This document shows, one piece after another, positions 5,139-62,479 of a stretch of 64,000 nt of DNA (the stretch's first letter is position 1; each line of letters begins with the position of its first letter). The stretch comes from Maricaulis sp. Lineage in GTDB: Bacteria > Pseudomonadota > Alphaproteobacteria > Caulobacterales > Maricaulaceae. The notes beneath the pieces are model-generated. The model was not told the DNA's origin. It saw only the letters and a list, made by a program, of their open reading frames with translations, and did no database searches. The stretch lies in assembly GCF_017643475.1 (NCBI RefSeq), contig NZ_JAEPNI010000001.1, positions 1,116,001 to 1,180,000 of the forward strand, written 5' to 3'. A program made the translations under genes and the position numbers.

Positions 5139-5756
5139 CTAGGCTTTTTCAACCAGGCGCAAGAAGCGGTTGCGCAGGTCGGCGTCGGTCTTGAACTCAC
5201 CGGTGAACGTCGTCGTGATCGTGGAGACGTTGGAGTGGTGAACACCGCGCGTGGTCATGCACTGGTGCTTGGCGTCGACATAGACGGCCACGCCGAGCGG
5301 CTCCATGGCCTCGGTCAGGGCGTCTGCGATCTGCGCGGTCATGGTTTCCTGGGTCTGCAGGCGCTTGGCAAAGATCTCGACGACGCGGGCGATCTTGGAG
5401 ATCCCGACCACGGCCTTGGTTGGCAGATAGGCGACATGTGCCACGCCCAGGATCGGCGCGATATGGTGTTCGCAATGGGATTCCACGTCGATATTCGTCA
5501 GCATGACGATGTCATCATAGCCCTGCACATCTTCAAACGTCTTGCCAAGGACAGCCGCCGGGTCGTCCTTGTAGCCAGAGAACCATTCCTCATACGCCTT
5601 GACGACGCGTTTCGGGGTTTCCACCAGACCCTCACGGTCCGGGTCATCACCGGCCCAGGAGAGAAGGGTCCGTACGGCTGCTTCCGCTTCTTCGCGGGTC
5701 GGTCGGGTTTTTTCTTCCGCAGGGATGCGGGCATCTTCAGGTGTCATGGCGTCCAT
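5139..5756 (-). CDS. folE: GTP cyclohydrolase I (FolE1)
   Basis: Converts GTP to 7,8-dihydroneopterin triphosphate, the first step of folate (and in many bacteria queuosine) synthesis, in the cytoplasm. The 205-residue protein has the zinc and catalytic motif [20 protein letters not shown], then [20 protein letters not shown], and HQCMTTRGV containing the second zinc cysteine. The frame is open further upstream, but [10 protein letters not shown] at 5756 is chosen because AAAGGATC sits in front of it and the upstream residues do not look like FolE. It is divergent from cysS. Confidence 0.95.
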
Positions 5757-5978
5757 TGAAATGGATCCTTTCGTTGACGGGTCGGCAGGACTTGTACGTC
5801 GCTGTCGTAGTTCCGGTTTCCGGATCGGGGACTGGCTCAAGACTTTTTGCAGTCCGGGCCTGAAATCCTCCGGTTTCGCGCTCTCACGCTTCAGGCTATG
5901 TAGGGCGTCTTGGTGGCAAATCCAATCGAATTGCCGCATGACAACTATTTATTTTTTCAGTCCACGACGGATTTTTCC

Positions 5979-7364
5979 ATGACCGCGCTGACCCTGTACG
6001 ACACGCTGAGCCGCCGCAAGAGGCCCTTTGAACCGATCGACCCCGAGCGTGTGACCCTCTATGTCTGTGGTCCAACCGTTTATAACTACGCGCATATTGG
6101 CAATGCGCGCCCGGCCGTCGTGTTTGATGTCCTCGCCAGCGCCCTGCGCCATATCTATGGCGCGGACAAGGTGATCTATGCCCGCAACATCACCGATGTG
6201 GACGACAAGATCATCGCGTCCTCCAGGGAAACGGGTGAGCCGATCGAGGCGATCACGACACGTTATGCCGAGATCTATCGCCAGGATATGGGCTCTGTCG
6301 GCGTCGCGATGCCGGATATCGAGCCACACGCCACCCAGCATATCCCGCAAATGGTGGCGATGGCCGCCAAGCTGATCGAGGACGGCTTCGCCTATGAGGC
6401 GGAGGGACATGTCCTGTTTTCGGTGAATTCCTTTGATGGCTACGGCAAGCTCTCCCGCCGTTCACTGGACGACATGATCGCCGGCGCGCGGGTCGAGGTC
6501 GCACCCTACAAGAAGGATCCGGCGGACTTCGTGCTGTGGAAACCTGCGGCTGATGACGAGCCGGGCTGGGAGAGCCCCTGGGGTCGTGGTCGTCCGGGCT
6601 GGCACCTGGAGTGTTCTGCAATGACGGCGGAGCACCTGGGCGAAACCTTCGATATCCACGGTGGCGGTGTCGACCTGGTCTTCCCGCACCATGAAAACGA
6701 GATCGCGCAATCCGTCTGCGCCCATGGCGGCAAGGCCATGGCGAACTACTGGATCCACAATGGTTTCCTGACCATGGGCACCGACAAGATGTCGAAATCG
6801 CTGGGCAATGTTCAGCTCGTGCACGACCTGGTGAAGGAGCATCCGGGCGAGGTGCTGCGCTATGCGCTGCTGACCGCGCACTACCGGGCGCCGCTGACCT
6901 GGACGAGTGACCTCCTGGCCAAGACGCGCCGCTCGCTCGACCGGATCTATGGCGTCCTGCGTCGCCTGGCAGATGTGGAAGCGGCCGACGTCACCGCGCC
7001 CCAGGAATTCCTGGATCAGCTGTTTGATGATCTCAACACGCCCAAGGCCCTGTCCGTCCTGTTCCAGATCGCGTCCCGTGCCAACAAGGCCGAGACCGAG
7101 GAGGAGCGGGCCCGCGCCAAGGGGGAACTGCTGGCCGCCGGCGCCCTTCTGGGCCTTGGCCAGGGGGATCCGGATGCCTGGTTCGGCCTGACCGATATCG
7201 ACCCGGCCGAACGCGAGCAGATCGATGGCCTCATCGCTGCCCGCAACCAGGCGCGCGCCGACAAGGACTGGGCACGGGCCGACGCGGTCCGCGACGAGCT
7301 CAACGCGCTCAACGTCCAGGTCGATGACGGCCCGGAAGGCTCGACCTGGCGGAAACAGGAGTAG
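5979..7364 (+). CDS. cysS: Cysteinyl-tRNA synthetase
   Basis: A class I synthetase that charges tRNA-Cys. The 461-residue protein starts [19 protein letters not shown] as the family does. It carries the HIGH-type motif ([11 protein letters not shown]), the zinc-binding segments [15 protein letters not shown] and [11 protein letters not shown], and the KMSKS motif (DKMSKSLGN). The upstream in-frame ATG at 5910 would add 23 unrelated residues and was not used. It is followed after 3 nt by a small unknown gene, so the two are probably cotranscribed. Confidence 0.96.
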
Positions 7365-58534: not shown

Positions 58535-58611
58535 GGGCCTGTAGCTCAATTGGTTAGAGCCGGCGGCTCATAACCGCTTGGTTGGGGGTTCGAGTCCCTC
58601 CGGGCCCACCA
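58535..58611 (+). tRNA. tRNA-Ile2 (anticodon CAT, lysidine type)
   Basis: A complete cloverleaf with encoded CCA: acceptor GGGCCTG/CGGGCCC, D-arm GCTC/GAGC, anticodon arm GGCGG-CTCATAA-CCGCT, T-arm GGGGG/CCCTC. The anticodon is CAT. Resemblance of the anticodon arm and variable region to ileX-type tRNA (CTCATAA then CGCTTGGT) favours Ile2, read after TilS modification, over elongator Met. It is immediately followed by the convergent radical-SAM operon. Confidence 0.88.
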
Positions 58612-58724
58612 TTCTTTTCAAGCTCCGTTTCGAGCGCGGACCGTACGAAATTGATCGTCGGTGTTGACGCTCAGGGCGCCGTGCCGTGGTGTGAACTGGC
58701 AAGTTTGGGGCTGTTTCGGTGGTG

Positions 58725-59693
58725 TCAGGGCACCGGACTCTGTTCACACAAGGTCCCGTACTGGACAGACTTCCAGTAATCGAGCGCCCATACGGCCATC
58801 ATGACACGATGATAGGCACCAAGTTCCGAGGTGATCTCGCAGCCCTTTGCCTCGCCGGACAGGGGGGCGTTTGGCTCACTGGAGTCGTTGGGCCCCCATG
58901 AGCCATCTTCAAGCTGAGCACTCGCGAGATGATCGAGTGCACGCTCTATAAAGGGGTCAACTTGCTGGGGCCGGGCCATGAGAAGAGCGAGGACTATTTC
59001 GCTTACGAGATCCCAGTCTTCCACCGCAAGTACAAGTTCGAGCTGGCCCAGGGCTCGCTCCAACAGCCCGTCGCTCCACGCGATCTGGGTGCCGCCGGCC
59101 CAGGACAAATCCCTGTTGCCAAAATCCGTAAGGTAATAAATCCAGTGTGTTGCATCATACAGGGCTGGACGATTGGCGTGTGTAAACAAGGCTTCCGTGT
59201 ACGCAAGGTGACGGAAGTGTTTCCAGGAGGGAAGGGAAGAGTGGAGTCCATGTCCTTCCATAGCCCATTTGAGTTCGGCGAAACGCATTGGCGACCGCGC
59301 TGTGTAGATCGCTTCCGGGCGGTTCATCCATGCCTCGACGACTGTGTCAGGCAAGATCCGTCTGCTTGTCTCGAAGCCGATCGCGCGCCGCATTATGAGG
59401 TGTGCAGGGAGGCAGAGCGGGTGTCCGGTCTCCGGGAAGAGGTGCAGCCCGGTTGAGCTGTAGGCGGAAGACAATGCGTTCCGAATGGCCCGGACAAGTC
59501 CCGACACTCCCTCGGAAGCATTATTCGCTATGCAGAAAACGGCCAGATCTGCGAGGCAGGTCTGGTGGTATTCGCAAGGAGAATGCCTGCAGTCGCGTGG
59601 CACAAGCATATCGAGTCGGCATTCCAGCCAACGCGACGCCCGGTCTCGGGACAGGGACAGAAGCGTCGAGACCGGGCGTCCATCATCGGGCAT
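58725..59693 (-). CDS. Alpha-toroid (terpene-cyclase-like repeat) protein of radical-SAM operon
   Basis: A 322-residue soluble protein without signal peptide. The C-terminal part has a QW-like prenyltransferase/squalene-cyclase repeat (AQLEDGSWG, 259-267). A distinctive THWIYYLTDFG lies at 182-192. No DXDD or DXXD cyclase motif is seen, so terpene chemistry is unlikely. An N-terminal cysteine set C35-x4-C40-x5-C46 may bind metal or a cluster. It starts 3 nt after the small Tat protein and is last in the operon. I infer a peptide-handling or partner role; no named family is assigned. Confidence 0.8.
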   Translation of the reverse strand: MPDDGRPVSTLLSLSRDRASRWLECRLDMLVPRDCRHSPCEYHQTCLADLAVFCIANNASEGVSGLVRAIRNALSSAYSSTGLHLFPETGHPLCLPAHLIMRRAIGFETSRRILPDTVVEAWMNRPEAIYTARSPMRFAELKWAMEGHGLHSSLPSWKHFRHLAYTEALFTHANRPALYDATHWIYYLTDFGNRDLSWAGGTQIAWSDGLLERALGQLELVLAVEDWDLVSEIVLALLMARPQQVDPFIERALDHLASAQLEDGSWGPNDSSEPNAPLSGEAKGCEITSELGAYHRVMMAVWALDYWKSVQYGTLCEQSPVP

Positions 59694-59696
59694 GGG

Positions 59697-60101
59697 TCAG
59701 TACCTTCTGCCGCGATTATTGTTTAGCGGACGTTGAATGTCCCGCATCGAGTTTGTAACGCCAGCGCGGTCGAGCACGCCGATCTGCTGGGAACTCAGTG
59801 CGGAGGCGTTTACACCGCAGCCCACTATGGCGAGCCACGCATCCGGTGGCGTGTTGGGGTTGAGGCCGAGCCGGGTCAGGATTTCGGCGCGGTCTACAGG
59901 GGTGCCGCCCGGCATCATTGCTCTGGCCTGGGGATTGATGGCCAGGCTGTCCGCGCTGTTGTTCTGGATGGCCCGCAGCGCGCTTGGATCGATTTGGCGC
60001 TGGGGTTGCCGTATTTGAGCTTCCGCACTGCTCCCGAGCGCCGCGGCCCCCGCGGCGACGGATGCGCCCACCATGAAATCTCGCCTTGATTTTTCAGTCA
60101 T
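59697..60101 (-). CDS. Small Tat-signal protein, candidate radical-SAM substrate
   Basis: A 134-residue protein. It has a twin-arginine signal (SRRDFMVGASVAAGAAALGS, cut likely after Ala28), then a Gln/Asn/Pro-rich mature part. One region looks folded or conserved (RAEILTRLGLNPNTPPDAWL), followed by IVGCGVNASALSS with the only cysteine, Cys95. The C-terminus is basic (QRPLNNNRGRRY). A perfect AAGGAGG lies 7 nt before the ATG, implying high expression. Its position between a SPASM radical-SAM gene (22 nt) and a toroid protein gene (3 nt) suggests it is the modified and exported product. Confidence 0.8.
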   Translation of the reverse strand: MTEKSRRDFMVGASVAAGAAALGSSAEAQIRQPQRQIDPSALRAIQNNSADSLAINPQARAMMPGGTPVDRAEILTRLGLNPNTPPDAWLAIVGCGVNASALSSQQIGVLDRAGVTNSMRDIQRPLNNNRGRRY

Positions 60102-60123
60102 GATTTTCCTCCTTGGCAGTGAA

Positions 60124-61578
60124 CTATTTTTCTGACGGTGCAGATGCGAGTGCATGAGTGATCTGGCGCTCAGAGTGTTCAGAGAGAGCAGCCCTGAAAG
60201 TGCGTTCGAAATCATCGCAATAGGCGTTGTAAATGTCGCCTGTGTTGTACTCCGCGTACTGTGCGCAACCACCTCCGCAAACCAGTGCATAGCGGCATCT
60301 CTGGCAGGTTGGCAGGGTTTCAATGCTTCTTGAGAACCAGCGCTCGGTTGCCTTTTCGTCCAGGCTGAGACTCTTGTCCGGCCCATAGGCGCCTATGCGG
60401 CTGCAGGCCTTGCCGACTGACTCCCAGCACGCATAGACGTGCCCGTCCGCGGCCATGATGAAATTCCCGGTATTGGCCGAACAAAATGTGCTTTTGAGGC
60501 CGAACCGGGCGTTTTCATTGAATACCGGCCCCATGGCGCGTTCAGCATGGATAGCCGGCGCGCTCGTGAAGACATTGTCAAACTCCCGACATCGGTCGTT
60601 CAGGGCAGTAACAATATCACCGTGGTCAATCTCGGCATGGACAGTGCCTTCAACGTCCTTGTCGTAGACGGTGTTGGCGTAAATGATCACCTGCGGATGA
60701 TCGATCCAGCCCCTCAATGCGAAGTCCGAGATGATGGTATCGAAGTGGTGAATGTTTGAAGGGTCGACGTGCACGCGGATCTGGATCTGGGCATCGGTCT
60801 GCTCGAGTGCGAGGTCGATATTCGCGACAATCTTGTCAAACGAGCTCTCCTTGCCGATGTAAACCCTGCGCTTGTCATGGATATCCTTGGGGCCATCGAT
60901 CGAAATCTGGACCTGCTCTATGCCACCAGACCCGATGAGCTCGAGGAACGCTTCCAGGTCGTGTCCATTTGTAATGCAGGCAAAGTGATGCCCTGCGGCC
61001 TGACCGCTACGGACGATGTGCGTGACAACATCCAAATTGGCACGATCCAACGGCTCTCCGCCATAGAGCACTATCTGCCCGCCAGGGGGTTGTCCGCGGG
61101 TCTTCTTGATTTCTGCAATCGCCGCCAGAGCTGCATCCGCCTGCTCCCGGCTCATCACCACATTCCCCTTGTGGTGGGAAATTTCACCACTCGTGCTCTT
61201 GAGCGCGTTTTGCATCGGGCGCTCGAAGCAATAAGTGCAACGGTAATTGCAGTCGAGATTGGGAACGATCATGAAGGCAGGCTTGGAATGCAGGGCGTCG
61301 TGGAGTGCGCCGGCTAAGTTCACCACGTTTTCCTGCTCTTCGGCACGGGACATTTCGACCAGATGCCCGCGGTCATACCATTCTTTCTTGAGTGGAAGCG
61401 GCAAGGTTCCAATCACTTCCTCAATAGCCGCTTCGTTGCGGGGGTGGAGCGCGTTGGCCAGTGGCGCACCGATACGCTCGGAAATGAAATCCATGGAGCC
61501 CGAAAGCCCGTTCATCAGAACATAACCGCCGCTCGGGAGACGGGTTGAAAGGATGGTGTAGGAGCTGAGTCTGAACAT
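60124..61578 (-). CDS. Radical SAM/SPASM-domain peptide or protein maturase
   Basis: A 484-residue enzyme. The radical-SAM cluster site is LDCNYRCTYCFERP (C110, C114, C117). The SAM-binding glycine region is VLYGGEPL, and VQISIDGPKDIHDKRR is the usual strand. The C-terminal SPASM domain has the full cysteine pattern: FCSANTGNF, HVYACWES, CQRCRYALVCGGGCAQY and YCDDF, for two auxiliary [4Fe-4S] clusters. Such enzymes alter peptide side chains or, as anSME, sulfatases. ATG 61578 is preferred; the in-frame TTG 61638 lies inside an operator-like palindrome. First gene of a three-gene operon. Confidence 0.92.
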   Translation of the reverse strand: MFRLSSYTILSTRLPSGGYVLMNGLSGSMDFISERIGAPLANALHPRNEAAIEEVIGTLPLPLKKEWYDRGHLVEMSRAEEQENVVNLAGALHDALHSKPAFMIVPNLDCNYRCTYCFERPMQNALKSTSGEISHHKGNVVMSREQADAALAAIAEIKKTRGQPPGGQIVLYGGEPLDRANLDVVTHIVRSGQAAGHHFACITNGHDLEAFLELIGSGGIEQVQISIDGPKDIHDKRRVYIGKESSFDKIVANIDLALEQTDAQIQIRVHVDPSNIHHFDTIISDFALRGWIDHPQVIIYANTVYDKDVEGTVHAEIDHGDIVTALNDRCREFDNVFTSAPAIHAERAMGPVFNENARFGLKSTFCSANTGNFIMAADGHVYACWESVGKACSRIGAYGPDKSLSLDEKATERWFSRSIETLPTCQRCRYALVCGGGCAQYAEYNTGDIYNAYCDDFERTFRAALSEHSERQITHALASAPSEK

Positions 61579-61630
61579 GGGCGGCACCGACTGTTGATGT
61601 GTCCAAGCATTGAGTCGTCGGAAAAAGTTC

Positions 61631-61648
61631 GTTTTCAATATTGAAAAC
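61631..61648 (-). promoter_or_regulatory. Perfect 18-bp palindrome at the radical-SAM operon start
   Basis: GTTTTCAATATTGAAAAC is fully self-complementary. It begins 5 nt downstream of the predicted -10 and so covers the expected transcription start, the classic place for a repressor. No regulator gene is adjacent. Confidence 0.65.
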
Positions 61649-61653
61649 AGAAA

Positions 61654-61682
61654 ATATTGTTACTATTTGTCGGGAATTTCAA
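61654..61682 (-). promoter_or_regulatory. Predicted sigma-70-type promoter of the radical-SAM operon
   Basis: On the minus strand, TTGAAA (-35, 61682-61677) is followed after 17 nt by CAATAT (-10, 61659-61654). The region is unusually AT-rich for this genome. Confidence 0.5.
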
Positions 61683-62479
61683 AATGCGAAATATTAATTG
61701 CGAAAGGCATCATATTTGTTTGCAATATGCGATTTGGGGCCTGTCAGAGCGTTGTGCTGATCATTAAGCTGGCGACAGCCTTTTCAGCCAGGTTTGCTTC
61801 CCGGCGTCACGCGAAGTGTCGCCTGCCTGTTTTCGATCGGCTTGCGTTTCGCGTCTTCCCGCTCGTTATGGTGGCTGCTCGCCCCTCATGGTCTCACACT
61901 GTGAAATACAGCTCGCTAACCCCCTCTGGAGTGGGGCGCACAGCTTCGTGCGGCTGAATAGGTTGCTTCTACTTTTGAGATTCGCGACCAGTGATGTTGC
62001 CGGGCAAGTCTATAACCTGATCGCAAGGGCAGGCCTTCTCCTACACGTCCCGGCGGTCGTGGTTCGCGGCCCGCGATCAACCATCTGAAAAAATTGGTTA
62101 AACAAGCGTTTCGGTATACGCGCGACTGCATGAGCCAGCTTGCAGAAAGCATAACTCCGAACCTGATGTACTACTCTTGGTCGAAGACACTTTCCGCGAA
62201 CCCAATTGAACAACATCGGTCAATTCGACAGACGATGACTTTGCCGACACATTGATTTGTCTGGTGTGTATACCTTCATCCAGGCCCACCACATCTGTCA
62301 GCGAGTTCACGCAAGCGGAACTGCGGCGGTGTCGCCTGGCGCTGGTCAGTTCGTTGCGGGGGGCTGCTTTTCCGGAGCGGGGCGGTGAGGCGCTATGACC
62401 TTATCAACTGCGGCAAGGGCTTTCGCCCGCGCATAATTTGATCACAATCGCGACATGTAGCGTATCGAGAGAGACACAC
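61683..62479. other. Gene-poor stretch between the radical-SAM operon and SapC
   Basis: About 800 nt without a convincing gene apart from a weak 70-codon frame listed separately. Open frames here lack ribosome sites, family resemblance and the codon bias of neighbours. The left part (to about 61740) is AT-rich promoter DNA. The middle may be decayed coding sequence. No repeat or transposase signature was seen. Confidence 0.6.
62098..62310 (-). CDS. Doubtful 70-residue Ser/Thr/Cys-containing small ORF
   Basis: A GTG-started frame upstream of the radical-SAM operon on the same strand. The last third is rich in Ser/Thr with two cysteines (STSGSELCFLQAGSCSRAYT). It resembles a ribosomal-peptide precursor in composition only. 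No ribosome-binding site is visible and codon use is mixed, so this may be chance. Confidence 0.2.
   Translation of the reverse strand: MNSLTDVVGLDEGIHTRQINVSAKSSSVELTDVVQLGSRKVSSTKSSTSGSELCFLQAGSCSRAYTETLV

Follow-up and report, generated by a model that had tools for sequence, protein, structure and literature searches.

Gene content and recurrence of the locus

The window, by which we mean the whole 64,000-nucleotide stretch of Maricaulis sp. DNA that was analysed, contains three consecutive minus-strand open reading frames (ORFs) that encode a radical-SAM/SPASM enzyme of 484 aa, a small protein of 134 aa, and a toroid protein of 322 aa (ORF list of the window). The genes for the enzyme and the small protein are separated by 22 nt (60102-60123), and those for the small protein and the toroid by 3 nt (59694-59696); coordinates, lengths, and gaps all agree with an earlier reading of the window made without database searches (hereafter the sequence-only reading). 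The features of the locus are as follows:

58535..58611, plus strand: tRNA-Met (CAT), apparently the site of integration; its 3' end forms one proposed flank of the islet
58725..59693, minus strand: DUF6895 alpha-toroid-like protein, 322 aa; conserved Y179, T182, H183, D228, E232, and H295
59697..60101, minus strand: small Tat-signal protein, 134 aa, putative substrate; core at residues 59-101, with invariant W89, C95, and N98
60124..61578, minus strand: radical-SAM/SPASM peptide or protein maturase, 484 aa; CX3CX2C and SPASM Cys set
62277..62291, plus strand: degenerate copy (13/15) of the tRNA-Met 3' end, the proposed other flank of the islet; exact counterpart in same-genus locus L059

The sequence-only reading had proposed checking whether the trio recurs as a unit in conserved order, and it does: the genes for the enzyme, the small protein, and DUF6895 follow one another in this order in four genomes belonging to two phyla, namely the window's own, a second genome of the same genus (G076), Novosphingobium malaysiense, and a Rokubacteria MAG in which the small protein is duplicated within the trio. 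Across these recurrences, the enzyme is 48-64% identical to that of the window (54% in N. malaysiense and 48% in the Rokubacteria MAG), and the recurrence of the arrangement at such divergence is more than chance would give. In a fifth genome (G746), the enzyme and the small protein adjoin without the toroid; this pair is followed by an opposite-strand gene that resembles, by eye, the gene after DUF6895 in the Rokubacteria MAG. The enzyme and the small protein are therefore adjacent in 5/5 genomes (four found via the enzyme and one via the small protein), with DUF6895 next to them in 4/5. By the RiPP criterion, a gene-encoded small protein beside a modifying enzyme, the arrangement is conserved across all five genomes. 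No DUF6895 protein was detected in G746 at E≤1 (the completeness of this genome is not stated); because the pair is present there without a detectable DUF6895, the toroid may be unnecessary in this host, may have been lost, or may have escaped detection.

Within the genomes searched, the cassette is rare and has a patchy distribution. Enzyme matches occurred in 2/137 genomes of the window's family (the window's own and G076, of the same genus) and in 1/385 genomes of its class (its own), and a scan of genome contigs with the enzyme identified the N. malaysiense and Rokubacteria MAG loci. A profile of the small-protein core matched 1/299 genomes of the window's order (its own; G076 was not among the matches and was presumably not in the sample) and at least 1/398 genomes of its phylum (again its own), the phylum counts being lower bounds because scoring was limited to 15 first-look candidates for each listed genome. 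In the genus of the Novosphingobium locus, the same profile matched 2/149 genomes, with one weak match (G548, E=5e-4), and in the phylum of the Rokubacteria MAG it matched 2/95 genomes, which added G746. Searches of open-licence PubMed Central articles listed nothing naming the trio, and the sequence-only reading knew of no described system of this kind. We regard the trio as a variation on known radical-SAM peptide systems, set apart by its DUF6895 partner and its putative substrate, which in most cases bears a Tat signal.

Radical-SAM/SPASM enzyme

Pfam identified the enzyme as Radical_SAM (E=4e-14), and the SPASM model TIGR04085 scored 44 bits against a cut-off of 27. The CX3CX2C motif is formed by C110, C114, and C117, and the remaining cysteines are arranged as C366-X12-G-X4-C384 ... 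C425-X2-C428-X5-C434-X3-C438-X15-C454, a spacing that we take to be the SPASM pattern; all of these positions, and likewise C392, are Cys in 5/5 aligned sequences, including that of the window. The motif and the model score together bear out the full SPASM cysteine set that the sequence-only reading had assigned to this enzyme.

The NCBIfam models most like the enzyme (best 25 of 64 families) are peptide maturases, all of them below cut-off, and the highest maturase score was 109.1 bits against a cut-off of 525. Among these same best 25 of 64 families, the enzyme scored 92.6 bits against the ranthipeptide enzyme PapB and 63.8 bits against the thioether-forming SCIFF maturase, both below cut-off, and 72.3, 57.5, and 46.1 bits against the cyclophane-forming maturases YhhB, DynA (which we take to be a cyclophane former), and FxsB, respectively. 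By cut-off, within these best 25 of 64 families, the enzyme is not a member of any named peptide maturase family (TIGR04463, CefB, PapB, SCIFF, FlmE/OhkG, and others). Because cyclophane-forming maturases are also among the families that it resembles, more than one type of bond is conceivable. With the SPASM maturases (TIGR04463, CefB, PapB, SCIFF), the enzyme shares the radical-SAM core, the SPASM cysteines, and a putative substrate that is small, is encoded next door, and has a conserved Cys; however, it falls far below every cut-off (best 25 of 64 families), and the putative substrate here is larger, bears a Tat signal in most cases, has a single mature Cys, and is accompanied by a DUF6895 partner. 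Assignment to the prokaryotic viperins, which act in defence, was considered and rejected: the pVip match covers residues 109-289 only, corresponding to the radical-SAM core, and viperin_w_prok scored 38.2 bits against a cut-off of 180.

No relatives of the enzyme were found in phage records at E≤1e-10, and none of 44 pattern stretches in viral contigs was confirmed as one. Distant relatives (23-29% identity) occur in seven plasmid records; the trio was not found on plasmids, where the small-protein core had no match at E≤0.01, and no match of this core was found in the three of these seven loci that were inspected. The co-occurrence of enzyme and small protein, on which the sequence-only reading depended, holds for close homologues (5/5 genomes) but was not seen for the distant plasmid relatives. 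On a Muribaculaceae plasmid (L019, 3983-5515), an rSAM gene whose product is 29% identical to the window enzyme precedes a 47-aa ORF that carries four Cys towards its end. At a Rhodococcus plasmid locus (L017, 4926-7682), the rSAM gene precedes a 38-aa ORF that has a GTG start and two Cys, and also a gene for a protein weakly similar to M50 peptidases, below cut-off.

DUF6895 protein

Pfam identified the toroid protein as DUF6895 (PF21836; 68.5 bits, gathering cut-off 23.8), and the other three trio members pass this cut-off as well. The structure model is nearly all helical and of low to moderate confidence (mean pLDDT 58.9, pTM 0.58). Aligned against the PDB, the model gave no match at E≤0.001, for which reason we describe the fold only as toroid-like; 403 matches had E≤10, all weak, squalene-hopene cyclase among them. 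Sequence similarity to squalene cyclases is also weak and below cut-offs, and identity as a terpene cyclase or squalene-hopene cyclase was rejected (19.8 bits, cut-off 431.1). The likeness to squalene-hopene cyclases consists of weak C-terminal sequence similarity and a weak fold match; however, the score is far below the cut-offs, and the conserved residues are a different set from what we take to be the cyclase motifs.

We aligned 19 DUF6895 members (L041 was excluded, and L039 and L040 were trimmed to their first 305 and 310 residues, respectively). Y179, H183, D228, and E232 are identical in 19/19 sequences, T182 in 18/19, and H295 in all 17 that have a residue there; H295 lies in a stretch of the model with pLDDT under 50. 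Judged from this alignment, the invariant residues look catalytic. Position 45 is T in the four trio proteins and K in 14/19 aligned sequences, and the E found at position 132 in 14/19 is missing from the four trio members; lacking K45 and E132, the trio proteins may differ in their chemistry. A DUF6895 lasso-peptide epimerase has reportedly been described, going by the title of a 2026 article by Shi et al. in ACS Catal., and the trio protein is of the same Pfam family. Compared with the DUF6895 family (PF21836), the trio member has the same invariant polar residues and a small gene directly upstream, whereas it differs in being paired with a radical enzyme, in lacking K45/E132, and in the type of peptide beside it.

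According to the sequence-only reading, this protein lacks cyclase motifs and could present the substrate or bind its modified form. The first part agrees with the scores far below cut-offs; the second fares less well. It would mean that the radical enzyme modifies the small protein while DUF6895 only binds or presents the substrate, as a chaperone. The retention of enzyme and small protein in G746 without a detectable DUF6895 and the absence of family residues K45 and E132 from the trio members are consistent with such a role; however, we consider it unlikely, given the catalytic look of the invariant residues and the epimerase reported within the family. On these two grounds, the protein is more probably a further tailoring enzyme than a presenter.

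Small protein

The NCBIfam model TIGR01409 identified a Tat signal in the window's 134-residue protein (25.7 bits, cut-off 16.7), as the sequence-only reading had proposed; Pfam PF10518 scored 18.5 bits (cut-off 22.7), and the Pfam Tat models are below cut-off. Among the homologues, TIGR01409 scores of 16.8, 17.9, and 23.8 pass and P0011 just misses by 0.1 bit (16.6), such that the cut-off is passed by 4/6 small proteins, the window's included. The small protein of Novosphingobium (L011, 97 aa) has no TIGR01409 match, and its reading frame, followed upstream as far as the previous stop codon, contained no Tat-like stretch. As a general trait of the small proteins, the Tat signal therefore does not hold, and predicted Tat export is usual but not obligatory.

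C95 is the only Cys in the window protein, consistent with the one mature Cys described earlier. Conservation is concentrated in residues 59-101, around Cys95, with the core consensus LGLDPsTPPDAWLxIxxCGSNASAL; the signal region and the C-terminal tail are variable, and the Asn/Arg C-terminus to which the sequence-only reading drew attention is not a conserved feature. Residues W89, C95, G96, N98, A99, and A101 are invariant in five aligned small proteins, and all are kept in G746, in which the W-to-C spacing is one residue shorter and TPP is replaced by TSP. The Trp and Cys are six residues apart in 5/6 small proteins. With respect to the ranthipeptide/sactipeptide criterion, a Cys thioether cross-link, the small proteins have a single invariant Cys. 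The structure model of the small protein (mean pLDDT 46.6) is too poor for use. We read the small protein as the putative substrate because of its adjacency to the enzyme in 5/5 genomes and the concentration of its conservation at residues 59-101.

In the maturation of quinohemoprotein amine dehydrogenase (QHNDH), as described in PMC7876137, the radical enzyme QhpD modifies the small protein QhpC in the cytoplasm before QhpC reaches the periplasm, QhpC leaves via an ABC transporter after leader cleavage, and the QHNDH cofactor is derived from Cys37 and Trp43. With this precedent, cytoplasmic radical modification followed by passage to the periplasm is plausible for the small protein. The likeness to QhpD/QhpC would lie in a cytoplasmic radical change before the periplasm and in Cys/Trp chemistry; however, the small protein has a Tat signal where QhpC has an ABC transporter, and no dehydrogenase genes were recognised among the flanking ORFs inspected here. 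It could be argued from the same precedent that the small protein functions in the periplasm, carrying a redox cofactor of the Cys-Trp type formed from its own residues, instead of being secreted as a peptide product. The single invariant Trp and the single invariant Cys, at a spacing of six residues in most of the peptides, would fit this, with the Cys37/Trp43 cofactor of QHNDH as the described parallel, and Tat export suits a folded, cofactor-bearing protein. Nevertheless, the W/C spacing differs in G746, the Novosphingobium protein is without a Tat signal, and no dehydrogenase subunit or flavin oxygenase was recognised among the inspected flanking ORFs (by eye, with Pfam on a few), which together make a redox cofactor quite improbable.

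Proposed activity of the operon

Our preferred reading, to which we assign a probability of roughly 0.55, is that the operon makes a modified small protein, with the radical enzyme acting on its core, DUF6895 introducing a second change, and Tat exporting the product in most hosts. In the order of events that we infer, the radical-SAM/SPASM enzyme would act in the cytoplasm on the conserved core, and the most likely bond would be a thioether from Cys95 to a nearby carbon, for which Asn98 and Trp89 are invariant candidates. DUF6895 would tailor the same peptide a second time without radical chemistry, plausibly as an epimerase at Calpha or as some other acid/base enzyme, acting through the invariant His/Asp/Glu/His set. 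The finished, folded small protein would then leave via Tat in most hosts. The earlier suggestion that the small protein could be modified, folded, and exported whole is consistent with the adjacency and the core conservation, but the missing Tat signal in Novosphingobium speaks against it as a rule.

It is very unlikely that the enzyme instead modifies something else and that the small protein and toroid are linked to it by operon membership only: distant enzyme relatives do have other neighbours, yet the order is conserved across two phyla amid different surrounding genes, and the pair is retained in G746, where DUF6895 was not found. If the preferred reading of a doubly modified, Tat-exported small protein is true, radical and DUF6895 chemistry would be combined on one small protein, and DUF6895 would seem to have a general role in peptide tailoring. 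Being small, the cassette lends itself to direct testing in E. coli.

Genomic context and probable lateral acquisition

The operon sits between the tRNA-Met and the 13/15 copy of its 3' end (58535-62291). As a bare match, this repeat is at chance level: with ≤3 mismatches, four copies were found against 3.85 expected, and its exact nine bases were found twice against 1.01 expected. A same-genus genome (G071, locus L059) has this neighbour gene and tRNA as well, and there an exact 15-base copy occurs 656 bp after the tRNA, with other cargo between. A stretch of 61 bp that lies 45 bp before this exact copy is 79% identical to window positions 62171-62231, which likewise lie 45 bp before the window's copy. 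Because the window repeat alone is no more than chance, the islet argument rests on the comparison with G071; the same-genus tRNA copy with different cargo suggests an integration hot spot, and the window operon is probably located on a tRNA-Met islet. No integrase was seen by eye among the islet ORFs.

The GC content is 0.564 for the islet and 0.606 for the window, with values of 0.559, 0.627, and 0.588 for the three genes; at the other loci, cassette GC is within 0.06 of the surroundings. Since the gene values vary and the other loci match their surroundings, GC adds little to the case for lateral acquisition of the cassette, which is likely but not proven. In G076, the cassette follows a NUDIX gene and lies ahead of what we take to be an ATP synthase operon, and in Novosphingobium it lies between astA and astB.

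DUF6895 genes outside the trio

DUF6895 was found in Alphaproteobacteria, Actinomycetota, Bacillota, and Rokubacteria. Within the window's phylum, it occurs in at least 13/398 genomes, 11 of them above the family cut-off, and these counts are lower bounds with up to five first-look candidates per listed genome scored. We took 10 phylum loci, leaving out the window's own genome and the two below cut-off (L035 and L036), together with five plasmid loci; of the resulting 15, L049 and L050 end at contig ends. A small peptide-like ORF, picked by eye, is located directly upstream on the same strand in 13/15 loci; in the remaining two, L041 and L042 from Streptomyces, one gene intervenes. In a mechanical count over these 15 loci, 33/74 long ORFs other than the DUF6895 genes were also directly preceded by an ORF of 60-175 aa on their own strand, so adjacency alone says little.

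The peptides form a class with a helix plus Trp motif (L038-L040, L043, L044, L046, and L052) and a class with FSSG-like repeats (L045 and L047-L051, chosen by visual inspection). Within the helix-plus-Trp class, leave-one-out profiles re-find the ORF of the omitted locus at E≤0.012 in 5/7 loci, among 4,906 ORFs; L040 was not distinguishable (E=2.7), L052 had no match, and the best other match in any run had E=0.09. Such profiles are better evidence than adjacency for the pairing of DUF6895 with peptides. At E≤1, the 15 loci, two of which are truncated at contig ends, gave no relatives of the radical enzyme. We also compared the peptides of the trio with those linked to DUF6895 elsewhere, and a shared ancestry was not supported (hhalign probability 0.2-0.5%, no profile match).

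Tentatively, the cassette may be a mobile one with a doubly modified product (a radical W/C/N cross-link and, through DUF6895, a second change, for example to a D-amino acid) that is exported by Tat in folded form without a classical leader peptidase/transporter, and it may belong to a broader group of DUF6895-peptide pairs that spans several phyla and is largely undescribed; this broader proposal is possible but doubtful.

The small ORFs preceding DUF6895 in L045, L047, L048, L049, L050, and L051 (family f25, in the window's class) carry repeats such as GEGxxLFSSGL and GEATMLSTSSF. Just upstream of DUF6895 in L043, positions 5550-6203 contain a tandem pair of peptide ORFs that are near-duplicates of each other and have their ends near GRWYVY and GPWFVL. 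The Streptomyces plasmids (L041 and L042) each have two DUF6895-like genes in tandem, which in L042 are preceded by an annotated P450, a 62-aa peptide, and a 231-aa protein.
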